Shown here one piece after another: positions 3,852 through 17,878 of a stretch of 52,951 bases of DNA (positions are counted from its first letter, which is position 1; the number at the start of each line of letters is the position of its first letter). Both the position numbers and the translations under genes were made by a program. The notes under the pieces were generated by a model, which was given only the letters and a program-made list of their open reading frames with translations, was not told the origin of the DNA and made no database searches. The DNA comes from Deltaproteobacteria bacterium (GTDB lineage: Bacteria > Myxococcota_A > UBA796 > GCA-2862545), in contig SBGP01000112.1 in NCBI GenBank assembly GCA_006226595.1, forward strand, positions 1 to 52,951. The letters are read 5' to 3'.

Positions 3852-6407
3852 ATGCCTCGCTACGCCCTCGACAACTTCGTCATCGACACGGACTCCGCCC
3901 GCCTGTGGCTGGACGGCGAACCCGTGGACGCGCAGCCCCTGGTCATCCAGATGCTGGCGTACCTCACCGAGCGAAAGGGCCAGGTGGTGAGCCGCGACGA
4001 GCTCGCCGCTCACTTGTGGCCGGACGTGCAGGTCACGGACCACTCCCTGACCCAGGCCGCGCACAAGCTGCGCCGCGCGCTCGGCGACCACCGGGACTGG
4101 ATCGCCACCGTGCCGCGCAAGGGCTTCCGTCTCGATGCGCCGGTCAAGTCCCTGCGGCGGCGCACGGGCCCGCCCCCACCGCCGATGCGCCCGCGCCTCC
4201 ACGGGCGGGACGCGGAGCTCGCGCAGGTCGAGGCCTGGCTCGGGGCTGGGGACCGCCTGGTGTCGATCACCGGACCCGGCGGCATCGGCAAGACGACGGT
4301 GCTCACCGAGATCGGCCATCGGATGGGAGTGAGCGCGCTGTTCGCCCCGCTCGGCGACGCCACCGACCGCCAGGACCTGTGCCGCGCACTCGCCGGCGCA
4401 CTCGATGCGACCGTGCCCGGCGACGTCGCGGTGAGCGCCATCGCCGAGCTGCTACGCAGGCGGGGACCGACCGTGCTGCTCCTCGACAACTTCGAGCAGC
4501 TCGCGAAGAGCGAGACCGCGACCGTGCAGCTGTGGCTGCGGGCCTGCCCCGACCTGCAGGTGGTGATCTCGACGCGCATCGCCCTGCGCCTGGTCCACGA
4601 GCGCCGCCTCGCGCTGGGTCCTCTCCCCCTACCCGAGGGGAACGACGCGACCAGCCTCTCCGAGAGCGCGGCCGGCGCCCTGTTCCTGGAGCGAGCACGC
4701 GCCGCCGACCCCGACCTGCAGCTGGGCGACGGGGACATCGCGGCGATCGCGGCGCTGTGCCGCGAGCTCGACGGACTTCCGCTGGCCCTCGAGCTGGCCG
4801 CGGCTCGCGTGCGCCTGATCCCGCCCAAGAAGCTGCTCGATACCCTCGGCAGGCGCCTCCACAGCCTGAAGAACGCACGGAGAGACGCCCCCGCGCGCCA
4901 CGAGTCCCTCGCGGCCGCCATCGAGTGGAGCTTCACGCTGCTCGACGCCGCCCAGGCCGACGCCATGGCCCGACTGTCGGTGTTCGAGGGCGACTTCGAC
5001 TTCGACGCCGCGGGCGCGGTGCTCGGCGACGAGGCCCTGGAGAGGGTCGAGGACCTGCTCGACCACAGCCTGCTCCGCCGGCTGCCGCGCGGACGCTTCG
5101 GACTGTTCGCGACGATCCGGGCTCATGCCGCCCAGCACCTGCCCGCGAACAGCGACGCCTCCGAGCGCCACGCCCGGCACTTCGTGGAGCGCGCCGAAGC
5201 CGGTGACATCGAGGCCGCCGATGTCGACAACCTGCTCGCAGCCAGCCGATGGGCGGCGCTGCGGGACGACGGACTCGCGCTCCGGTCCCATGCCGCGCTG
5301 ATGCGGGTGCTCCGCCGCAACGGACCGATCGCCGCCGCCCTTCCCAGCCTCGAGGCCGCGCTCACCCTGCCGCGTCCCGCCGAGATCGAGGCCGAGCTCC
5401 GCATGTTGCGCGCCGATGCGTTCCGCCTGCTCGGCCGCCGAGAGGAGGCCGCCCGCGACCTGCGTCGCGCCTCGACCCTGGCCCCAGGTGGCGACCTCGC
5501 GGGCCGCATCCTCCATGCCCAGGCCCTCGTTCACCGCGACAACGCGGACTCCGCGCGGGCGGAAGAGGCCTTCGAGACCGCCATCGCGCACTTCCGCACC
5601 GCGAACACGCCGGACCTCGAGAGCCGCGCCCTCCGCGAGCACGGCGAGCTCATGTGTCAGGTGGGCCGCTACGCCGACAGCGAGCGCCTGCTCTCCCAGG
5701 CCTCGGCCCTCGCCGCCGCCACCGCCGACCGCGCCGGTCTCGCCGCCGCGCGTGGCGCCATGGGTCGCCTGCAGCACGCTCGTGGCGAGCTGCACGAGGC
5801 GCGCCAGGGCATGGAAGAGGCCCTCGCCTTCCTCGAAGAGAGCGGAGATGCCGTGCTCGCCTCCGTGGCGCTCCAGCACCTCGCGCCAGTCCTCGCCGAG
5901 CTCGGCGAACACGAGGCCGCGCACGAAGCTCTCGACCGCGCCGAGAACCTCCAGGAGCAGACCGGACAGCTGCAGCTGCTCGCCTTCACCCGCGGCAAGC
6001 GGGGTCAGCTGTGGCTCGCCGAGCAGGCCCTCGAGGCCGCGTGGGACGAGCTGTCCTCGGCCGTGGAGCTGTGCCGTCAGTTCCACCTCGCCGGCGGCGA
6101 AGGCACGTTCCGCAGCAGCCTCGCGGTGATTCATGCCCGCCGCGCGGAGGACGAGGCCGCCCGACGCGAGCTCGCCCTCGCCCAGGCCCTGCTCGAGACG
6201 GCCGACTCGGCGCTGGATCTGCTCGAGGTCCACCTTCGCCGGGCCCGGCTCGATGCTGCTTCCGACCCGATCGCCGCCCACCGGGCCGCGGCCCAGGCCA
6301 CCGCCCTTCGCGATCGCATCGAGCTGCCGCCGGACAGTCGCCTCCACCGCGAGCTCGTCGACATCCATCGGCGCCTCGACGCCGCGGCCTTCCTGTCGAT
6401 GCGCTAG
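3852..6407 (+). CDS. Winged-helix / P-loop ATPase / TPR transcriptional regulator
   Basis: This 851-residue protein has three parts. Residues about 1-100 form an OmpR/PhoB-type winged helix (EPVDAQPLVIQMLAYLTERK, then ELAAHLWPDVQV and TVPRKGFRL), as in CadC- and SARP-like regulators, but without a receiver. Residues about 115-480 form an NB-ARC/STAND-type ATPase with Walker A GPGGIGKTT (Lys147) and Walker B VLLLDNF (Asp212). The remaining 350 residues are Ala/Arg/Glu-rich helical repeats of TPR type. Such STAND regulators bind ATP and oligomerise when a ligand or partner engages the repeats; the ligand here is unknown. The gene is monocistronic and convergent with the TVP38-type gene, sharing a CTAG at the stop codons. 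DNA targets cannot be inferred from the sequence. Confidence 0.88.
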   Translation: MPRYALDNFVIDTDSARLWLDGEPVDAQPLVIQMLAYLTERKGQVVSRDELAAHLWPDVQVTDHSLTQAAHKLRRALGDHRDWIATVPRKGFRLDAPVKSLRRRTGPPPPPMRPRLHGRDAELAQVEAWLGAGDRLVSITGPGGIGKTTVLTEIGHRMGVSALFAPLGDATDRQDLCRALAGALDATVPGDVAVSAIAELLRRRGPTVLLLDNFEQLAKSETATVQLWLRACPDLQVVISTRIALRLVHERRLALGPLPLPEGNDATSLSESAAGALFLERARAADPDLQLGDGDIAAIAALCRELDGLPLALELAAARVRLIPPKKLLDTLGRRLHSLKNARRDAPARHESLAAAIEWSFTLLDAAQADAMARLSVFEGDFDFDAAGAVLGDEALERVEDLLDHSLLRRLPRGRFGLFATIRAHAAQHLPANSDASERHARHFVERAEAGDIEAADVDNLLAASRWAALRDDGLALRSHAALMRVLRRNGPIAAALPSLEAALTLPRPAEIEAELRMLRADAFRLLGRREEAARDLRRASTLAPGGDLAGRILHAQALVHRDNADSARAEEAFETAIAHFRTANTPDLESRALREHGELMCQVGRYADSERLLSQASALAAATADRAGLAAARGAMGRLQHARGELHEARQGMEEALAFLEESGDAVLASVALQHLAPVLAELGEHEAAHEALDRAENLQEQTGQLQLLAFTRGKRGQLWLAEQALEAAWDELSSAVELCRQFHLAGGEGTFRSSLAVIHARRAEDEAARRELALAQALLETADSALDLLEVHLRRARLDAASDPIAAHRAAAQATALRDRIELPPDSRLHRELVDIHRRLDAAAFLSMR

Positions 6408-7093
6408 CTCTGCGGAAGCACGAGCGCGCGACTCGCGACGCGCGTCACCGCCACGGTCGCCACCAGCGTGAGCACCGCGCCCCCGATCATCACCCCGCCC
6501 GGAGGCGGCGCCCCGTCGAGCAGCTGGGTCAGGCTCGCGACGCCGGCGCCGATGATCGCGTTGAACACCACCACCGGAATCACACCGATCGCCGTGCCGA
6601 GCACGTACTCGCGAAAACTCACCGGTGAGGCGCCGAGCGCGTAGCTGATGATGTTGTACGGAAACAGCGGCGACATGCGGGTGAGCGCGACCACGTACAC
6701 CCCGCGTCGCCCCACCTCGCTCTCGAGGGCGCGCCACCGCGGCGAGTGCATGGCACGAGCGACCACCGCGTCTCGAAGCAGCGTACGGCCGAGCAGGAAC
6801 GCGATCGCCGCCGCCGTCACCGACAGCGCCCAGCCCACGACAGCCCCGACCACAGGACCATAGAGAAAGCCCGCGGAGCCCATCTGCACCGACGCCGGGA
6901 GCATCAGCAGGGCCCAGGCGAGCACGCCGAAGGCGAAGGGCACGGGACCAGCCTGCTCGAGGCGCTCGAGCCAGCCGAGCAGATCGCGGACGCCGAGGTC
7001 GCTCCACCAGATGCCGAGCACGAGACCGCCGAGCACGGCTGCAAACAGCAGCGCACGGCGAATGGGCAGGTTCGGCGAGGAGGTTCCGGACAC
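6404..7093 (-). CDS. TVP38/TMEM64 family inner-membrane protein
   Basis: This is a polytopic inner-membrane protein of the SNARE-associated/TVP38/DedA superfamily, thought to act in lipid scrambling or membrane homeostasis. Evidence is an N-terminal membrane segment (LLFAAVLGGLVLGIWW), a family-type block GFLYGPVVGAVVGWALSVTA with FLLGRTLLRD, then the signature RMSPLFPYNIISYALGAS, and two C-terminal membrane segments. I chose the GTG at 7093, preceded by GAGGG, which gives 229 residues. An in-frame ATG at 7129 and a TTG at 7141 would add a short charged tail. The stop overlaps the stop of the convergent regulator gene within the palindrome CTAG. A more distant relative, a DedA protein, is encoded at 46729-47316. 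Confidence 0.88.
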   Translation of the reverse strand: MSGTSSPNLPIRRALLFAAVLGGLVLGIWWSDLGVRDLLGWLERLEQAGPVPFAFGVLAWALLMLPASVQMGSAGFLYGPVVGAVVGWALSVTAAAIAFLLGRTLLRDAVVARAMHSPRWRALESEVGRRGVYVVALTRMSPLFPYNIISYALGASPVSFREYVLGTAIGVIPVVVFNAIIGAGVASLTQLLDGAPPPGGVMIGGAVLTLVATVAVTRVASRALVLPQS

Positions 7094-7245
7094 GTCGCCC
7101 TCGGTATCGCAGTGGTTCGGCCGGCGCATCCGACCGGACAAGGCATGACAGCGATTCCTTTCGCCTTCCTGTCACGAGATGACGCGCCTCGAATGTCCGG
7201 CGAGCTCCGGCGTCCCACAGGCGTCTTTCCAGGGAGGAAAGCCCC

Positions 7246-7989
7246 ATGCTCCATCACCTCAAGACCCTGCGCGACCTCGGCCTCTCCGCTGCGATCACCC
7301 TGGTCCTGTTCGGAAGCCCCGTCGGCGTGGCCGCCATCAAGAACGTGCCCATGCTCCAGGAAGCCATCGAACAGCCCGAGGAGACCCGGGTGGTGTACCT
7401 GCCCCCGCCGCCGCCTCCGAAGGCGCCCGCCGCGGACGACTCCGGCAAGGAGAGCACCCCCTCCGAGAGCCCGGACACCCAGAAGCTCGGCGGAAGCGGC
7501 GTGCCCGTCGAGGCGGTCGCCAAGGCCGGCGCGACCAGCGCCCGCCACTACGGCGGCACCGCCGGCACCGTGCGCGGCACCCGGTTCACCCCGGCCAAGA
7601 AGGCCAAGACCCCGCGGACCAGCCGCTGCACGCCGGACAACCCGCAGATCGTCGTCGAGGACCGCAACTACCGCGTCGTCGAGCGCGCGCTGGTCGACCA
7701 CTACACCGGCGACCTCTCCGAGCTCAACCGCCTCGGCTACGTGAAGAAGCACGTCGGCGAGGACGGCGGCAAGTCCGACGGACTGCTCGTCCGCGGCATC
7801 CGCTGCGGCAACGACCTGCACGAGCTCGGCATCCGCAACAACGACATCGTGCACACGGTGAACGGCAAGAAGGTGCGCAACCTGCTCCAGGCCGTGGCCG
7901 TCTACCTCAAGCTCAAGGGCCAGGAAGACTTCGTGGTCGAGCTCACCCGCGGCGGCAAGCGGGTCACCCTCCGCTACCGCCTGACCTGA
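7246..7989 (+). CDS. Secreted/periplasmic PDZ-domain protein, GspC-like
   Basis: This 247-residue protein begins with a membrane segment or signal (SAAITLVLFGSPVGVAA), followed by a Pro-rich linker (LPPPPPPKAP) and a low-complexity region to about residue 125. The C-terminal 110 residues resemble the PDZ end of type II secretion protein GspC: a RNYRVVERALVDHY helix, GLLVRGIRCGNDLHELGIRN, then DIVHTVNGKKVRNLLQAV and a final strand. The linear order of N-terminal anchor, Pro-rich linker and C-terminal PDZ also matches GspC, but no other secretion gene is nearby, so I call it only GspC-like. GGGAGGAAA precedes the ATG at a good distance. There is no recognisable protease domain. Confidence 0.75.
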   Translation: MLHHLKTLRDLGLSAAITLVLFGSPVGVAAIKNVPMLQEAIEQPEETRVVYLPPPPPPKAPAADDSGKESTPSESPDTQKLGGSGVPVEAVAKAGATSARHYGGTAGTVRGTRFTPAKKAKTPRTSRCTPDNPQIVVEDRNYRVVERALVDHYTGDLSELNRLGYVKKHVGEDGGKSDGLLVRGIRCGNDLHELGIRNNDIVHTVNGKKVRNLLQAVAVYLKLKGQEDFVVELTRGGKRVTLRYRLT

Positions 7990-7995
7990 CGCGAC

Positions 7996-8163
7996 TCAGG
8001 GGGCGTCCTCGCGCTCCGCCGACGTGGCCCTCCCCGGCTCCGTCACTCCCTCCCTGGTTTCCAGGAGCCCGAGGACGCCTCCCTTCGCGTGTCGCATGCG
8101 CAGTTCGCGCACCGTCACCTTCGCCTTCGGCACATGACGGAATTGGCGGTTCCACCCTTCCAT
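7996..8163 (-). CDS. Possible small basic protein, 55 aa
   Basis: A 55-codon frame on the minus strand starts with ATG at 8163, preceded by GAGG at about 8 bases, and stops just beyond the end of the PDZ gene. The product is basic in its first half (RQFRHVPKAKVTVRELRMRH) and acidic and Thr/Glu-rich at the end. It has no signal peptide and no recognised family. It fills most of an otherwise empty gap between the PDZ gene and the signalling operon. The Shine-Dalgarno and even composition favour a real gene, but at this length chance is not excluded. Confidence 0.35.
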   Translation of the reverse strand: MEGWNRQFRHVPKAKVTVRELRMRHAKGGVLGLLETREGVTEPGRATSAEREDAP

Positions 8164-8210
8164 GCGCCCATCCTCACGGATTTGCCTGCCGCGAGGGCGT
8201 CTCCAGGCAG

Positions 8211-8236
8211 TATCCTGCACGTCAACCGGGGAACGC
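8211..8236 (+). promoter_or_regulatory. -10-like TATCCT for the signalling operon, short leader
   Basis: TATCCT at 8211-8216 lies 20 bases before the ATG at 8237, with GGGGAA in between as a weak Shine-Dalgarno. A TTGCCT at 8182-8187 is 23 bases upstream of it, too far for a standard -35. This is the only promoter-like site I see for the operon that follows. Confidence 0.4.
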
Positions 8237-10732
8237 ATGCAGGTACTGGAGCTCGAGCTGTGCGCCGCCCTCCGCCTTGGAGATGATGGCACCGTCGAAC
8301 GCGTCGGCGTTGGCTTCGAGCGCATCCTCGCCTGGGAGGCGCGGGAGCTCGTCGGTAAGAAGTGGCACGAGGTCTGCGACGAGGCCCATACAGAGCGCTT
8401 CGCCCGGGCCTACGAGAACGTCCGCAGCGGCGCGCCCTCGGCCTCGGTCCGCGCGCGATTCCCCCGCTACCCGGATCCGGTGACCCTGGTCAGCCGCCTC
8501 GCCCGCGAAGGCGATGGCTTCCTCGTCGTGTGCGAGGACCAGACCAAGAAGACCGCGAACGTCGCCAACGTGTCGAGCATGGCCAACCTGGTCGACTTCG
8601 CCGCCGACTCCTGGTTCGTGCACGACCTCGAGGGACGCATCCGCGACGCGAACAGCTGGGCGTGCAAGAACCTCGGCTACACCCGCGAAGAGATGCTTCA
8701 GCTGCACGTCGCGGACTTCGAGACCACGATTCGCCCCGGCCGCATGGACGGCGTGTGGAACCGCATGGAGATCGGCGTGCCGATCTCTGTCGAGGGATGC
8801 CAGAAGCGCAAGGATGGCAGCACCTTCCCCGTCGACGTCCGCCTCGGGCTGTTCGAGTCCGGCGACGAGGTCCTGATGCTCGCCATCGCTCGCGACATCA
8901 CCAAGCTCAAGCGCGTCGAGGCCGAGCTCCAGGAGTTCAACGACGCGCTCGAGCGCAAGGTATCGGACCGCGCCCGCGAGATGAACATCACCCTGACCCA
9001 GCGTCAGGCCATGCTCGACAGCATGAGCGATGGACTGGTCGCGGTGGATGCCGAGGGCATCATCGAGCTCGCGAACCCCGCACTGGGCGAGCTCCTCGGC
9101 GGCACCCTGCCCCACGGCATCCCCGCCGCGGACGTGCTGCCGGGCAAGATCCTCCAGGTCATCGACGAGGCACTCGAGACCGGCGCGCCCACCGTGGGCG
9201 AGGCGCGCTGCCCCGGCGACCGCATCTGCCAGGTCGCCGCGTCGCCCATCCTCCACGACGGCGTGCTCGACGGCGTGATCGCCCGAGTTCAGGACGTCAC
9301 GCTCGAGCGTGAGATCGACCGGATGAAGACCGACTTCATCGCCACGGTCAGCCACGAGCTGCGCACCCCGCTCACGTCGGTGCTCGGCTTCGCGAAGGTC
9401 ACCCGCAACCAGCTCGAGTCCAAGGTCTTCCCGCACCTCGACCTCGAGCAGAAGGGCATCCAGCGCGCGGTCGCCCGGGTCCGCAGCAACATCGACATCA
9501 TCCGCAGCGAAGGCGAGCGGCTGACCGCGCTGATCAACGACGTCCTCGACATCTCGAAGATGGAGTCGGGGCGCATGGAGTGGAACTTCGCGCCGGTGGA
9601 CGTCGAGTCGCTCGTGTCCCAGGCCGCCGAAGCGACCAGTGCGCTGTTCATGGAGGAGCCGGGCCTCGAGGTCGAGGTCGAGGAAGGCCTGCCGGCGATT
9701 CACGGCGACCGGGCGCGCCTGCTGCAGATCCTCATCAACCTGCTCTCGAACGCGGCGAAGTTCGCGCGGAGCACGGTGCGCCTCACCGCCTTCCAGCAGG
9801 GTGGTGGGGTCGAGTTCGCGGTGGAGGACGACGGCATCGGCATCGATCCCGCCCTGCAGGCCTCGATCTTCGAGAAGTTCAAGCAGGTCGGCAACACGCT
9901 CACCGACAAGCCCAAGGGCACCGGCCTCGGCCTGCCGATCTGCCAGCAGATCGCCCGCGCCCACGAGGCGGAGATCACGGTCGCCAGCGACGTGAACGAG
10001 GGCGCGCGCTTCGCGTTCTCGATCGGGGTCACCCAGGCCAAGCCCGATGCGGCGAGCCAGGTCGAGGCGCTGCTCCGACGGATCGAGCACAAGGTGCCCC
10101 GCTTCGACGCCGGCGCCCGCGACATCCTCGTCGTCGACGACGACCCGAACATCCGCGAGCTGCTTCGACAGGAGCTGTCCGAGCGCGGCTACACCGTGCG
10201 CCAGGCCGCGAACGGCTACGAAGCCATCGGGCAGGTCCGCGCCCAGCGCCCGGATCTGATCATCCTCGACGTGATGATGCCCGAGCTGTCGGGCTTCGAC
10301 GTCGCCGCGATGCTCAAGAACGACCCGCAGACCGAGTCGATCCCGATCCTCATCCTGTCGATCATCGAGGACGAGGACCGCGGACTGCGACTGGGCGTGG
10401 ACCGCTACCTCACCAAGCCGGCCGAGACCGAGGACCTGCTCGAGGCGGTGCGCGACCTGCTCGAACAGGAGACCTCGCCGAGAAGGGTGCTCGTCGTCGA
10501 CCAGAACAAGACGATGACCTCCGAGATCGCGCGACTGCTCGAGCTTCGCGGCTACCAGGTCGTGGGGACGGCGAGCGAGACCGACTTCATCGAGAAGGCC
10601 CGCGAGGCGCGTCCCGACCTGATCATCCTCGAGTCCATCCTCGACGGGCACGAGGAGCTGCTCCGCACGATTCGCTACGAGAAGGATCTCGAGCACGTGT
10701 ACATCGTGCAGCTCGTCGAGGACCGCGCGTGA
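8237..10732 (+). CDS. Hybrid sensor histidine kinase with two receiver-like domains
   Basis: This 831-residue cytoplasmic sensor has no membrane segment. An N-terminal PAS-like region (about 1-110) precedes a PAS domain (about 115-230), a coiled coil, a third PAS-like domain (about 255-350), then the transmitter. HisKA carries SHELRTPL with phosphoaccepting His373. HATPase has NLLSNAAKFA with Asn505, DDGIGID and GTGLGLPI. The first receiver (about 630-745) is canonical with Asp678 in LIILDVMMPE. The second (about 750-831) is short and degenerate: Glu799 replaces the phosphorylated Asp in LIILES, and the conserved C-terminal Lys and last helix are missing. The stop overlaps the next start in a GTGA, so the four genes to 14997 look like one coupled operon. 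The PAS domains suggest a soluble ligand or redox signal, but the stimulus is unknown. Confidence 0.9.
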   Translation: MQVLELELCAALRLGDDGTVERVGVGFERILAWEARELVGKKWHEVCDEAHTERFARAYENVRSGAPSASVRARFPRYPDPVTLVSRLAREGDGFLVVCEDQTKKTANVANVSSMANLVDFAADSWFVHDLEGRIRDANSWACKNLGYTREEMLQLHVADFETTIRPGRMDGVWNRMEIGVPISVEGCQKRKDGSTFPVDVRLGLFESGDEVLMLAIARDITKLKRVEAELQEFNDALERKVSDRAREMNITLTQRQAMLDSMSDGLVAVDAEGIIELANPALGELLGGTLPHGIPAADVLPGKILQVIDEALETGAPTVGEARCPGDRICQVAASPILHDGVLDGVIARVQDVTLEREIDRMKTDFIATVSHELRTPLTSVLGFAKVTRNQLESKVFPHLDLEQKGIQRAVARVRSNIDIIRSEGERLTALINDVLDISKMESGRMEWNFAPVDVESLVSQAAEATSALFMEEPGLEVEVEEGLPAIHGDRARLLQILINLLSNAAKFARSTVRLTAFQQGGGVEFAVEDDGIGIDPALQASIFEKFKQVGNTLTDKPKGTGLGLPICQQIARAHEAEITVASDVNEGARFAFSIGVTQAKPDAASQVEALLRRIEHKVPRFDAGARDILVVDDDPNIRELLRQELSERGYTVRQAANGYEAIGQVRAQRPDLIILDVMMPELSGFDVAAMLKNDPQTESIPILILSIIEDEDRGLRLGVDRYLTKPAETEDLLEAVRDLLEQETSPRRVLVVDQNKTMTSEIARLLELRGYQVVGTASETDFIEKAREARPDLIILESILDGHEELLRTIRYEKDLEHVYIVQLVEDRA

Positions 10733-12060
10733 GGCCGCTGAACCTGCGCAAGGTGCTCCGGGGCGGCCAGAAGGCGGCCCTGATGGACGTGCTCGCCCTC
10801 GCGCCAGATGTCGTTCGCATCGAGGACCTCGACGGAAAGCCCCTGTTCGGCGGCGAAGGCGACGGCGAGGTCACCGACATCCGCCACGGAGACGCGCTGA
10901 TCGGACGGGTGATCGGCGGCGCGTCCAGCGAGCGCATCGCCGGCGTCGTCGCATGGATCTACGACCGCGAGCAGGAAAAGCGCAGCCTCGCCGCCGAGAC
11001 CCTCGACCGGTACAAGGAGCTATCGCTGCTCTACGACCTCGGCGAGAAGCTGTCTCGCGAGCTCGAGCTCGCCGACGTCGCCCGTGCCGTCCTCACCGAC
11101 GCCCAGCGTCACCTGCGGGCCTCCGGGGGTGCGTTGTACCTGCTCGATCGGCAGCACGGCACCCTCGAGGCCGTCGCGTGGGTCGGCGACGACAGCGTGC
11201 CGAAGATCCTACCCGCCGACCGCGGCATCGCCAGCCAGGTCCTCGAGACCGGCAGGGCCCTGTTCGTCGACGAGAGCAGCGGCGGACAACCCGAGTCCAG
11301 CCTGGACCAGGGCCCAACCTCGATGATCTGCGCGCCGCTGCGCATCGGGGAGCGCGTGTTCGGCGTGATCCGCCTGTGGCAGGAAGGCCTCGGCACGTGG
11401 ACCTCGGGCGACCTGAAGCTCGTCGCGGCCCTCGCTGCCAACGCGTCCTCCGCGGTCTCCGCCGCGCAGCTCCACACCCAGCGCGTTCGCGAGCTCGCCC
11501 TGCTGCATCAGCTCGAGCGCCACGTGTCCAGCGGCTTGCTCCAGGCCTGCTACGGCGACACCCCGCCCACCCAGGGCAAGATGGTCATCGCCTGCTGCGA
11601 TCCGCGCACGCTCGTCAGCGTTCGCGGCGCCGAGCGTGTCGAGCACGTCGTCGAGGCCGTCGAGGGCGGCACCGCGCGAGCCATCGGCGCCTTCCTCGAG
11701 GCGGGCGCCGTGGTCGACACCCCCCAGGGCATCGTGCTCGGCCTGTTCACGGGCGAAGCCGCGCCCGCGAATGCCGTCGAGGCCGCACGCCGCGCGATCC
11801 GCGCGGTCGAGGCCTTTGCTCCGACCGGACTCGGAGCCTCCACACCCGGCGTGGGCATCGCCTGCGCCAACATCGAGGGCGAAGCCACCGAGGGCCTGTA
11901 CGCGGGAATCAATACCGCGGCAGTGCTCCAGACCGACAGCAGCGGCCGACTCATCGTCGACGCCGACGTCGCGCAGTCGCTCGGTGAGCTGACCCTGACC
12001 TCGCTCGGCACGCGTGAGCTGCCGCGGGGAACCCATGAAGTCTTCGAGGTGAACTGGTGA
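10729..12060 (+). CDS. GAF-domain protein with degenerate class III cyclase domain
   Basis: This 443-residue protein starts at a GTG overlapping the kinase stop. Residues about 1-90 are an unassigned alpha/beta region and about 105-260 are a GAF sensor domain (LYDLGEKLSRELELADVARA, then SGGALYLLDRQ and ICAPLRIGERVFGVIRLW). Residues about 285-443 follow the strand order of a class III nucleotide cyclase. First-strand Asp291 is kept (ACCDPRT), but the second metal-binding Asp of the GDG turn is Gln333 (PQG). In the NxxxR motif, Asn395 is kept and the transition-state Arg is Val399 (NTAAV). I infer a catalytically dead cyclase fold used for binding or regulation. No Shine-Dalgarno is evident, so translation is likely coupled to the kinase gene. 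Confidence 0.8.
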   Translation: MRPLNLRKVLRGGQKAALMDVLALAPDVVRIEDLDGKPLFGGEGDGEVTDIRHGDALIGRVIGGASSERIAGVVAWIYDREQEKRSLAAETLDRYKELSLLYDLGEKLSRELELADVARAVLTDAQRHLRASGGALYLLDRQHGTLEAVAWVGDDSVPKILPADRGIASQVLETGRALFVDESSGGQPESSLDQGPTSMICAPLRIGERVFGVIRLWQEGLGTWTSGDLKLVAALAANASSAVSAAQLHTQRVRELALLHQLERHVSSGLLQACYGDTPPTQGKMVIACCDPRTLVSVRGAERVEHVVEAVEGGTARAIGAFLEAGAVVDTPQGIVLGLFTGEAAPANAVEAARRAIRAVEAFAPTGLGASTPGVGIACANIEGEATEGLYAGINTAAVLQTDSSGRLIVDADVAQSLGELTLTSLGTRELPRGTHEVFEVNW

Positions 12061-12440
12061 GCAAGAAGGTCCTGATCGTCGATGACGAGCCCCACATCCG
12101 GCTCCTGTTGGAGCAGACCCTCGACGAGCTCGAGGATCACGACGTGGAGCTGCTGACGGCGACGAACGGCCGCGAGGCACTGGAGATGCTCTCCGAAGAG
12201 CACCCGGAGCTCGTGCTGCTCGACGTGATGATGCCTTTCGTCAACGGCTTCGACGTGTGCAAGCAGATGAAGGCCGACCCCAGGCTCGCGGACATCTTCG
12301 TGATGATGCTCACCGCGAAGGGCCAGGAGTTCGACCGAGCCATGGGCGAAGAGGTCGGTGTCGACCTCTACATCACCAAGCCCTTCGACCCGGACGAGGT
12401 CCTCGAGAAGGCGGCGGAGGTGCTCGGCATTGAGCTCTAA
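12057..12440 (+). CDS. Single-domain response regulator (CheY-like)
   Basis: The 127-residue product is a stand-alone receiver with all key residues: Asp9-Asp10 in IVDDEP, phosphorylated Asp56 in LLLDVMMP, Thr in MMLTAKGQ and Lys in YITKPFDPDE. It has no output domain, so it should work by protein-protein contact or as a phosphorelay intermediate. The GTG start overlaps the preceding stop (GTGA), and the following kinase gene starts inside its last codons. It is the likely partner of the hybrid kinase at 8237-10732, and perhaps the route by which signals reach the Ser/Thr kinase. Confidence 0.92.
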   Translation: MSKKVLIVDDEPHIRLLLEQTLDELEDHDVELLTATNGREALEMLSEEHPELVLLDVMMPFVNGFDVCKQMKADPRLADIFVMMLTAKGQEFDRAMGEEVGVDLYITKPFDPDEVLEKAAEVLGIEL

Positions 12441-14997
12441 GGTCCCGGATTCCATCGACTTCCGCGAGCAGCTGGTTCGGCGGTTCCTCGACGAGCACGG
12501 GCTCGAACAGGACCTGCTGCAGCCCCTGCTGCGGATCTTCCGTGCGTCGAGCATCGGCACGCCCACGGTGATCCGCGAGCCGAGTCCGTCGTCCGTCGAG
12601 ACCTTGTTCATTCCCGATAGCCAGACGCTCGAGAGCGACTCGGCACCCCCGACGCTGCCCTCGCTGTTCGAGGACGAGCAGCCGCTCACCATCGACGAGC
12701 AGCCAGCGCTGCCCAAGGTCGCGTTCGACTCGCTGGGTCTGCTCGGCCGCGGTGGCATGGCCGAGGTGCATCGCGCCCGCGATGCGGCGCTCCACCGCGT
12801 CCTCGCGATGAAGATCCTCGATGCGCGCTACCTCGGCGACCATCGCATGCGCGCCCGCTTCCTCGCCGAGGCCCAGATCACGGCACAGCTCGCCCACCCG
12901 TCGATTCCCGCGGTTCATGGTGTCGGCGAGATCGACCGCGGCCTGCCCTTCTTCACGATGAAGGAGGTCGCCGGCGAGACGCTGTCGGCCACGATCCAGC
13001 GCGTGTACGCGGGCGATGCGGACCACCACTGGACCCAGACCCGCCTGCTCTCCGTGTTCCAGAAGGTCTGCGAGGCCGTCGCCTACGCGCACGCTCGCGG
13101 CGTGATCCATGGCGACCTCAAGCCCGCGAACATCATGGTCGGTGACTTCGGCGAGGTACTCGTCATGGACTGGGGCGTGGCCCGGCTCGTCGACCCGGCG
13201 AGCGAGGACGAGGGCGGCCTCGTTCCGGTCAGCCTCGGCCCAGGCGCCCGCACCGCCAACGAGTCCGCCGTCGCGGGCACTCCCGCCTACATGCCGCCAG
13301 AGCAGGCCCTCGGCCAGGGCGACAAGCTCGGGCCGCCCGCCGACATCTACGCCCTCGGCGTCGTGCTCTTCGAGCTGCTGTGCGGCTTCCGGCCCTACAC
13401 GGGCAGCCAGGTTCAGCTGCTCGTGCAGGCCTCCGAGGGCAAGCTTCCGCCGATGGAGCCGCTCACGGGCGGCCAGGTCCACGAAGGGCTCGCCGCCATC
13501 GTGCGCAAGGCAATGGACCCGAATCCAGACAGCCGCTACCCGCACGCGGGTGCGCTCGCCGAAGAGATCGCGCGGTGGCTCGAAGGCAGCATCCGCCGAG
13601 ATCGCGCGCTCGCCGAGGTCCGGACGGCACAGCGCCAGCTCGCGGACACCCACCCGATCCGCCGCCGGGCCGCGCACCTGCGCGAGCTCGCCGATGAACG
13701 CCTGCGCGAGCTGGGACCGGACGCGCCCGCCGCCGAGAAGGCCGCGGCGTGGAACCTCCAGGACGAGGCGGACAAGCTCGAGCGTGAGTCCGAGCTCGCC
13801 GTGGCCGAGATCACCCAGCGTCTCAACGCCGCGCTCGCCCAGGCACCGGACCTGCGCGAGGCCCACGAGCTGCTGGCACGCATCCACCTCGACCAGCACC
13901 AGGCCGCCGAGCGCCGACGCGACCGACGAGAGGCCGCGCGCCTCGAGGTCCTCCTGCGCGCGAACGACGTGGGCTCCTACGAGGCGTACCTCGCGGGCAC
14001 CGCCGCGCTCACCCTGCACACCCACGTGCCCGCCGAGGCCATCGTTCATCGCGTCGTGGAGCGCGACCGCCGCCTCGTGACCGAGCGGTTCGAGAGCCTG
14101 GGAACCACGCCGCTGACCGAGGTCGAACTGCCCATCGGCAGCTACGTGATCGAGCTGCGCGCCAAGGACCGGCCGCCGCTGTTCTACCCGGTCTCCCTCG
14201 ACCGCATGCAGCCCTGGCTCACCCGTGCGCCGGGCGAGACGTCACCGACGCCCGTGTACCTGCCCGCCGAGGGCGAGATCGGAGCCGACGAGGTGTACGT
14301 GCCCGCCGGGTGGTGCACGATCGGCGGCGACCCGAGCGCCCCGGGGAGCACCCGTCGGCAGCGGGTCTGGGTCGACGCCTTCGCCATGCGCCTCGATCCG
14401 GTGACCAACCGCGAGTTCTTCCCGTTCCTCGGCACCTCCGAGCCCTCTGCGGCACGCGCGCGACGCGAGCTGTTCCGAGCCCGCGTTCACCTGTACCGGC
14501 ACGACTCCCCGGCGGTGGGCATGTCGTGGCAAGGCGCCCAGGCGTACACCGCGTGGCTCGCGAAGACCGAGAAGCGCAGCTGGCGCCTGCCCACCGAGCT
14601 CGAGTGGGAAAAGGCCGCACGCGGCCCCGATGCGCGCTTCCACCCCTGGGGGGACCGCTTCGACGCGTCCTTCGCGCTGGTGCGCGCGGGGACGCGACTC
14701 CCGCAGTTCCCCGGTGCGTGCGGCGAGCAGCAGCTCGACACCTCGCCGTACGGCATCCGCGGCATGGCAGGCAATGTGCGCGACTGGTGCCTCGACGGGT
14801 TCCACGCCGACGCCCCCGAGAGCCTCGGTGAGCGACGCTCCATCATTCCGGAGAGCGACGGCCCACTGCGCGCGGTGCGCGGCGGCTCGTGGCGACAGCC
14901 CCCGGACGCCGCCCGGTCCGCTGCCCGCGCTGGGCTGTCCGCGGACCAGGGCTACGCCGACGTCGGGCTCCGACTCGTGCGCACCCTGGAAGGCTGA
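12430..14997 (+). CDS. Ser/Thr protein kinase fused to a formylglycine-generating-enzyme-like domain
   Basis: The start is a TTG at 12430, with GGAGG eight bases upstream, overlapping the response-regulator stop by 11 bases. The 855-residue product has an acidic N-terminal region (about 1-100), a PknB-type kinase domain (about 100-375), a charged coiled-coil/helical region (about 390-540), a linker, and an FGE/sulfatase-modifying-factor fold (about 620-855). Kinase features are LGRGGMAEVH, Lys128 in LAMKIL, VIHGDLKPANIMV with Asp229, DWG in place of DFG (Asp247) and GTPAYMPPEQ. His-Gly-Asp replaces His-Arg-Asp, so it is a non-RD kinase. The FGE part has RLPTELEWEKAARG, GNVRDWCLDGF and AVRGGSW. 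It lacks the C-terminal cysteine pair needed for formylglycine formation, so it is probably a binding module. No membrane segment is visible. Confidence 0.9.
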   Translation: MSSKVPDSIDFREQLVRRFLDEHGLEQDLLQPLLRIFRASSIGTPTVIREPSPSSVETLFIPDSQTLESDSAPPTLPSLFEDEQPLTIDEQPALPKVAFDSLGLLGRGGMAEVHRARDAALHRVLAMKILDARYLGDHRMRARFLAEAQITAQLAHPSIPAVHGVGEIDRGLPFFTMKEVAGETLSATIQRVYAGDADHHWTQTRLLSVFQKVCEAVAYAHARGVIHGDLKPANIMVGDFGEVLVMDWGVARLVDPASEDEGGLVPVSLGPGARTANESAVAGTPAYMPPEQALGQGDKLGPPADIYALGVVLFELLCGFRPYTGSQVQLLVQASEGKLPPMEPLTGGQVHEGLAAIVRKAMDPNPDSRYPHAGALAEEIARWLEGSIRRDRALAEVRTAQRQLADTHPIRRRAAHLRELADERLRELGPDAPAAEKAAAWNLQDEADKLERESELAVAEITQRLNAALAQAPDLREAHELLARIHLDQHQAAERRRDRREAARLEVLLRANDVGSYEAYLAGTAALTLHTHVPAEAIVHRVVERDRRLVTERFESLGTTPLTEVELPIGSYVIELRAKDRPPLFYPVSLDRMQPWLTRAPGETSPTPVYLPAEGEIGADEVYVPAGWCTIGGDPSAPGSTRRQRVWVDAFAMRLDPVTNREFFPFLGTSEPSAARARRELFRARVHLYRHDSPAVGMSWQGAQAYTAWLAKTEKRSWRLPTELEWEKAARGPDARFHPWGDRFDASFALVRAGTRLPQFPGACGEQQLDTSPYGIRGMAGNVRDWCLDGFHADAPESLGERRSIIPESDGPLRAVRGGSWRQPPDAARSAARAGLSADQGYADVGLRLVRTLEG

Positions 14998-16633: not shown

Positions 16634-17878
16634 ATGGTCCGGATCATCCTGGCAGGCATGTTGCTCGCAGGTTGCGGAGACGCACAGGCACCGCAGACCA
16701 GCGAGAGCCAGCGCGTCATTCGCATCGCGGGCAGCTCCAGCGTCAACGACAAGCTGATGCCGGCACTCGCAGCCGAGTATCAGCGACTCCATCCGGAGGT
16801 TTCGTTCGAGATCACCTCCGGAGGTAGCGGCGCCGGCATGCGGGCCCTGCTCGACGGGGAAGTGGAGCTCGCCGCGGCTTCGCGCGGACACACGCCCTCG
16901 GAGCAGGAACAGGCCAGCGTCAACGGCATCGACCTCGACGCCGAAGGCGTGCGCCACGTGGTCGCCGTCGACGTGGTCGCGCTCACCGTGCACCCCGACA
17001 ACCCGCTCGAGGCGATGACCTACGACCAGGTCATCGGCGTGTACTGCACCCACGGCACCGACAGCTGGGATCTGCTCGGCCAGGAAGAGCGACCGATCCG
17101 CGCCCTGACCCGCGACACCTCCTCGGGCACCCGCGCGCTGTTCGAGGACTTCTTCTGTGGCCCCAGCGGCATCCACGATCGCATCGAGGTGCGGAGCACG
17201 ACCGAGATGCTGTCCATCGTGCGCGAGGACACGAGCGCCATCGCCTACGCCTCCATGGCCGAAGAGCCTGGCAAGATCGTCGGTCTTCGACCGGACTCTC
17301 AGTCTCCCGCGGTGAAGCCCTCCCAGGCGAACATCATCCGCGGCATCTACCCGCTGTACCGCGACCTGTACGTGTACTCCTCACCGAAGTCGATGTCGGA
17401 GGACGCCCGCGCGTTCCTCGAGTTCATCGACAGCCCGGCGGGCCAGGAGATCGTCGACGAAGAGGGCTTCGTCCCGCTGTTCCTTCGTCCGGACCGCATG
17501 GACGGCCCGCGCCCGATGCGCGAGACCATCCACTTCGAGCCGCACAGCTCCCAGCTCACCACCCGCTCGCAGGCCCGCCTGAAGGTGCTCGCCGAGGAGC
17601 TCAAGGAGCGGTCCAGCGACTTCCGCCACGTCGTGCTCGAGGGCTATGCCGACTCGCACGAAGAGGAGCCGGAGCGCCTGAGCAGCGAGCGCGCCGCCGC
17701 CGTCGAAGCGGCGCTCAAGACCGAGCTCCCCGACCTGTTCTTCGAGACGATTCCGCGCGGCGCCAGCAACCCGCTCGCCCCGAACGCGACGCCGCATGGG
17801 CGCCACCGCAACCGACGCGTCCAGATCTACCTGGCCGAAGAAGAGGTCGACACCCCCGCCCCGACCGAGGGCGAGTAG
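16634..17878 (+). CDS. PstS-like phosphate-binding lipoprotein fused to OmpA C-terminal domain
   Basis: This 414-residue lipoprotein (signal LAGMLLAGC) has two domains. Residues about 28-280 are a periplasmic phosphate-binding-like domain with GSSSVN, EITSGGSGAGMRALLDGE, AAASRG, RDTSSGTRALFEDFFCG and a final DSPAGQEI helix. Residues about 295-405 are an OmpA/MotB-type peptidoglycan-binding domain (TIHFEPHSSQLTTRSQARL, LEGYADSHEE, LSSERAAAVEAAL, GRHRNRRVQIYL). Such a protein could bind phosphate or a related anion while tethered to both a membrane and the peptidoglycan. No ABC permease or ATPase gene is nearby, so its transport role is not shown. A phosphate-scavenging or surface-attachment role is inference. 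Confidence 0.85.
   Translation: MVRIILAGMLLAGCGDAQAPQTSESQRVIRIAGSSSVNDKLMPALAAEYQRLHPEVSFEITSGGSGAGMRALLDGEVELAAASRGHTPSEQEQASVNGIDLDAEGVRHVVAVDVVALTVHPDNPLEAMTYDQVIGVYCTHGTDSWDLLGQEERPIRALTRDTSSGTRALFEDFFCGPSGIHDRIEVRSTTEMLSIVREDTSAIAYASMAEEPGKIVGLRPDSQSPAVKPSQANIIRGIYPLYRDLYVYSSPKSMSEDARAFLEFIDSPAGQEIVDEEGFVPLFLRPDRMDGPRPMRETIHFEPHSSQLTTRSQARLKVLAEELKERSSDFRHVVLEGYADSHEEEPERLSSERAAAVEAALKTELPDLFFETIPRGASNPLAPNATPHGRHRNRRVQIYLAEEEVDTPAPTEGE

Follow-up and report, generated by a model that had tools for sequence, protein, structure and literature searches.

The window analysed here, a stretch of 52,951 nt on contig SBGP01000112.1 (assembly GCA_006226595.1) of a Deltaproteobacteria bacterium belonging to the GCA-2862545 lineage of Myxococcota_A, carries four open reading frames, genes A to D, that run in one direction on the plus strand at positions 8237-14997. 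They were originally predicted to form a coupled unit with two 4-base junctions and an 11-base junction, the last with a TTG start for D, and both the gene order and the overlaps (A/B 4 bases, B/C 4 bases, C/D 11 bases) are confirmed here. The products can also be regarded as soluble, with no transmembrane-grade stretch and a highest 19-residue Kyte-Doolittle mean of 1.5, and as lacking a DNA-binding output, since no such domain was found in A-D. The domain list given for them needs one correction, as it missed a second, degenerate receiver at the C-terminus of A. Just 5’ of A lies a gene for a PDZ-domain protein with a hydrophobic N-terminus (7246-7989), which is absent beside the operon of the sister species, and further downstream the sequence of 16634-17878 appears to fuse a PstS-like phosphate-binding domain to an OmpA-like C-terminus. 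A second, paralogous copy of the four-gene unit was looked for in the window genome and was not found.

The four genes and their domains

Gene A (8237..10732) encodes a soluble PAS-PAS-PAS hybrid histidine kinase of 831 aa, as read from its open reading frame and from Pfam matches to PAS, HisKA, HATPase and Response_reg, and it is 65% identical to its orthologue in the sister species. Its phospho-acceptor is His373 (nt 9353-9355). Receiver 1 (10124..10453; Response_reg at residues 630-739) has an intact Asp678, and receiver 2 (10478..10729), delimited through an alignment of 31 A tails, is a degenerate pseudo-receiver in which Glu799 occupies the phosphosite. With an intact receiver ahead of a degenerate one, A is like the bacterial hybrid kinases with pseudo-receivers treated in a review (PMC12632262), but it differs from them in having two fixed partners, an adaptor and a separate receiver. 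The partner receiver is the product of gene C (12057..12440; GTG start), a single-domain protein of 127 aa that matches Response_reg and has all of its phosphorylation residues intact (Asp9, Asp56, Thr86 and Lys108). With His373 and Asp678 in A and Asp56 in C retained, A and C carry the residues expected of a working two-component pair.

Gene B (10729..12060; GTG start) encodes a Bnt-GAF-pseudocyclase protein of 443 aa. Its N-terminal region, which we call Bnt (10729..11058), was defined from alignments, belongs to no Pfam family and ends in an ETLxRYKE signalling helix; it is conserved, and common to the B proteins of several phyla. Its fold has no confident match in the PDB, the best hits being a Foldseek E of 0.15 and a VIA Z of 6.0 over 76 residues at an rmsd of 3.4. 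It is followed by a GAF domain (11062..11457; Pfam GAF_2 at residues 112-243; structural Z of 20.2) and by a degenerate class III cyclase domain (11566..12057), for which Pfam gave no match in the window protein and which was recognised from its residues and from a predicted model (pLDDT 82). This model matches GAF domains at residues 88-251 and class III cyclases at 280-443, the latter with a Z of 18.3 against 1ybu_B (rmsd 2.9, 153 residues aligned), although it was partly guided by intact cyclases because its alignment included them.

An active class III cyclase has two metal-binding Asp, a Lys, an Asp or Thr, an Asn and an Arg. From this set the window protein keeps Asp291, the first metal Asp, and Asn395, and is without the second Asp, the substrate Lys, the Thr and the transition-state Arg. 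The losses are shared, as the substrate Lys, Thr and transition-state Arg are gone in all seven B proteins of the phylum, all of which retain the first metal Asp; the second is present only in G105, and the Asn is kept in the window protein and in the same-genus sister species (G001; the window genome is G000). The cyclase had been called degenerate in the original prediction, and the absence of the catalytic Lys, Thr and Arg upholds that description. As judged from these residues, the domain has lost catalysis, and the best reading is that B has been retained in a non-catalytic role, as an adaptor or a sensor.

Gene D (12430..14997) encodes a Ser/Thr kinase-FGE fusion of 855 aa. Its TTG start is preceded by a GGAGG some 8 bases upstream, which is the usual distance, and the start site is kept in relatives, where it overlaps C by 11, 14 or 4 bases when gene starts outside the window are set by simple ORF rules. 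The Hanks-type kinase domain (12733..13428; Pfam Pkinase) has its glycine loop, Lys128, the catalytic Asp229 (HGDLKP) and the DFG-type Asp247 (DWG). Since all six D proteins retain the Lys, the catalytic Asp and the DWG Asp, D is expected to be an active kinase. The C-terminal part (aa 619-851; 14284..14982) has an FGE-sulfatase fold according to Pfam. In FGE proteins the catalytic Cys pair sits near the C-terminus, and the C-terminal RGGSW...GLRLVR stretch of D contains no Cys at all, so that formylglycine formation by this protein is unlikely. Residues 1-95, before the kinase, include a modestly conserved helical stretch which, speculatively, could dock C. Matches to the kinase D number about 140 in the window genome as a whole, and FGE domains about 20, of which at least eight belong to kinase-FGE fusions.

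Conservation of the unit within the phylum

The gene order was also a point on which the original prediction had declared itself refutable: it would fall if the order were not conserved in related genomes. This refutation fails because A-B-C-D recurs in relatives, namely in five other genomes of the phylum. Among 58 relatives, a full-length B was found only in G001, where A-B-C-D stand in the same order with the same overlaps of 4, 4 and 11 bases as in the window, while none of the flanking genes that were tested is present there. Searches of the wider phylum added units in G264, G105, G999, G1081 and G983. As such, the complete order is seen in five of the six relatives and in the window, making six genomes across several families; in the remaining one, G983, the contig ends inside C, short of where any D would lie. 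D lies directly 3’ of C in all six readable cases. The unit is nevertheless rare and patchy, with the B front end present in 5 of 379 genomes, which are samples of the phylum and mostly metagenome assemblies (E <= 1e-12). Weaker matches to B in relatives were mostly ordinary GAF proteins without Bnt and were discarded.

For each of the four proteins the tree gives one clade, ((G000,G001),(G264,G105)), and when set against eight kinase-FGE paralogues from the window genome, the six D proteins form a single clade (98/99). These paralogues (e.g. C8:15482) share the kinase-linker-FGE layout and are mostly 36-45% identical to D, but those examined have no A, B or C gene within about 1.5 kb and fall outside the clade of D. 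Gene order and tree topology together indicate that A-D are one co-inherited signalling unit, for which the simplest reading would be that D was recruited once and that the four genes were then inherited or transferred together.

A Bnt-GAF module with exchangeable outputs

What the original prediction overlooked is that genes A, B and C represent a widespread module whose output can be exchanged. We define this module as a hybrid histidine kinase A, a Bnt-GAF protein B with an exchangeable C-terminal output, and a single-domain receiver C; at the window locus, B has Bnt followed by GAF, and an A-type kinase and a C-type receiver are adjacent on the same strand. A scan of genome contigs with the B sequence alone gave no matches, and other phyla were reached with a profile built from a two-row B alignment. 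Outside the phylum, the A-B-C module was thus found in Cyanobacteria, Desulfobacterota, a limnochordian and, as A and B only, a spirochaete, and a profile of Bnt (the first 124 residues of B) has matches in 27 of the 292 cyanobacterial genomes sampled and in 9 of the 297 sampled from Desulfobacterota. Among 54 B genes found elsewhere, a count that includes one locus present twice, 40 have an A-type kinase and 40 a C-type receiver as a nearby partner on the same strand, with both in 34; A or C is not adjacent at some loci, for instance L193, L194, L199, L201 and L202. The A-type kinase gene often overlaps B in these phyla, and the orders A-B-C, C-A-B, A-C-B and B-A-C all occur. The C-type receivers are 54-76% identical to the window protein and alignable end to end, with the phosphorylation residues kept and a TAKGQ motif in nearly all.

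The output behind Bnt-GAF varies. In many cyanobacteria and a few Desulfobacterota, B ends in a class III cyclase; other B proteins carry GGDEF, two have HD-GYP, several have a histidine-kinase core, and three cyanobacterial ones have a Ser/Thr kinase. In the latter, Bnt-GAF is fused to a Hanks-type Ser/Thr kinase (L117:9992-11779, L193:5094-6863 and L194:5410-7110), and these kinase outputs are of separate origin, as fusions to B. The limnochordian B (L124:1382-2854) has Bnt-GAF followed by a Rce1/CAAX-protease-like membrane domain. A further cyanobacterial locus encodes a giant protein whose N-terminal part is a Ser/Thr kinase and whose C-terminal part is a histidine kinase (L184:1-5599, minus strand), beside which are two Bnt-GAF-GAF-HATPase genes (5770-10673). 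Moreover, L208:5094-8240, L209:4344-7490 and L210:5056-8217 encode single proteins of about 1050 aa that join Bnt, GAF, PAS, histidine kinase and two receivers; a C-type receiver gene lies about 2 kb upstream, and the one that was scanned, L208, includes an Hpt, which makes these a fused version of the module with an Hpt. Because outputs vary behind a fixed front, gene and domain association suggests that A, C and Bnt-GAF are the controlling core and that the final domain of B is what this core controls.

The cyclase-type B proteins outside the phylum have all six catalytic residues intact in 16 of 17 cases, the exception being L214, and the conservation along the protein differs as well. Where the cyclase is intact, no other part of B is as well conserved (69-70% versus 39-54%). 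When the window protein is compared with those of G264 and G105, the cyclase is conserved least (31% and 24%, respectively, versus 34-44%), so that the pattern is reversed between intact-cyclase and D-associated proteins. D was found only with degenerate-cyclase B, never 3’ of a cyclase-type B elsewhere. As all of these cases sit on one branch, loss of the cyclase and gain of D count as one event and not as a statistical association.

Systems that resemble parts of the module are known. In Anabaena, the phytochrome-like kinase AphC has been proposed to control the class III adenylate cyclase CyaC by phosphorylation (PMC4284465). This pairing of a histidine kinase with a cyclase is like that of the module with a cyclase-type B, and the predicted model of the window pseudo-cyclase matches Arthrospira CyaC with a Z of 17.5 (rmsd 3.2, 165 residues, 19% identity). 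In CyaC, however, receiver and kinase domains belong to the same polypeptide as the cyclase, and to our knowledge no Bnt, separate C-type receiver or Ser/Thr kinase-FGE partner has been reported for AphC-CyaC. Also in Anabaena, the CdgK-CdgS operon encodes a multidomain hybrid kinase that controls a second-messenger enzyme; CdgK has one functional and one dispensable receiver, is membrane-bound and has an Hpt (PMC9927289). An operon with a two-receiver hybrid kinase is reminiscent of gene A, but CdgS differs from B and C in being a response regulator with its own GGDEF, receiver and output residing in one protein. CdgK-CdgS and Leptolyngbya Dgc2 were rejected as members of the module on their domain layout, and a possible link to Synechocystis slr1982/slr1983 was set aside as unconfirmed. 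Searches of an open-access library gave no published description of the module, and it is apparently undescribed.

Proposed signal flow and output replacement

In most lineages, the enzyme of B would be controlled by the phosphorylation state that A sets, probably with phosphorylated C as its carrier, and thereby the synthesis of cAMP or c-di-GMP, the hydrolysis of c-di-GMP, or a kinase. In the lineage studied here, a nucleotide second messenger would have given way to Ser/Thr phosphorylation by D, which is the likeliest output because the cyclase of B lost catalysis and D is joined to C. We consider this account as a whole, a three-gene module that lost its cyclase, was joined by D and now signals through Ser/Thr phosphorylation, to be somewhat probable. 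More tentatively, one may picture a family with a fixed core in several phyla of which a single lineage was rewired, such that C directly gates D and the old cyclase persists as a pseudoenzyme.

As for the route, the original prediction envisaged a phosphorelay ending in a Ser/Thr kinase. A strict His-Asp-His-Asp relay is doubtful because a Pfam scan of the four proteins found no Hpt and receiver 2 of A is without its Asp; this doubt concerns A-D only, as an Hpt could be encoded unlinked, elsewhere in the genome. Direct phosphorylation of C by A, for which an Hpt is not needed, would be simpler. Receiver 1 of A could then act as a sink or regulator and the pseudo-receiver as a binding surface, while phosphorylated C, perhaps with B as scaffold and GAF ligand sensor, would control D, whose FGE fold may serve in binding a substrate or ligand.

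So could the four genes simply be a chance neighbourhood in a genome rich in signalling genes? That genome does hold more than 100 kinase or receiver matches to A, but the identical order and overlaps amid different flanks in the sister species, together with the matching trees, in effect already refute this idea, and we give it hardly any credence. A closer rival has A and C acting on an unlinked target in parallel, with D only co-expressed for stoichiometry or timing. C is just as well conserved in modules without D, and with about 140 Ser/Thr-kinase-like matches and some 20 FGE domains, kinase genes are abundant in the window genome and can therefore land beside other genes; D may be under control other than C, or just be co-transcribed. 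Against this stand the same C-D pair with its overlapping start in six genomes and a D clade apart from the paralogues, and we consider parallel outputs unlikely.

Just as improbable, in our judgement, is that B is still the effector, its pseudo-cyclase binding a nucleotide or metal and allosterically regulating A or D, so that D would be nucleotide-gated and C a feedback or phosphate-sink receiver. The cyclase fold is full length, the first metal Asp is present in 7/7 proteins and the Asn in the window and G001, and since these are retained the domain does not appear to be in the course of deletion. The substrate Lys, Thr and Arg, in contrast, are missing from all seven proteins, and no part of B is less conserved than this domain. 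On balance, replacement of the cyclase output by D is the reading we prefer.

The module provides a natural experiment in which a pathway swaps its output and keeps its input, the same front end occurring with cAMP-type, c-di-GMP-type, histidine-kinase and Ser/Thr-kinase enzymes. Direct cross-signalling from His-Asp to Ser/Thr phosphorylation would find in A-D a concrete case, testable with four soluble proteins. Furthermore, Bnt, as a so far unnamed sensory or adaptor domain, and the signature receiver C can now be annotated across phyla.
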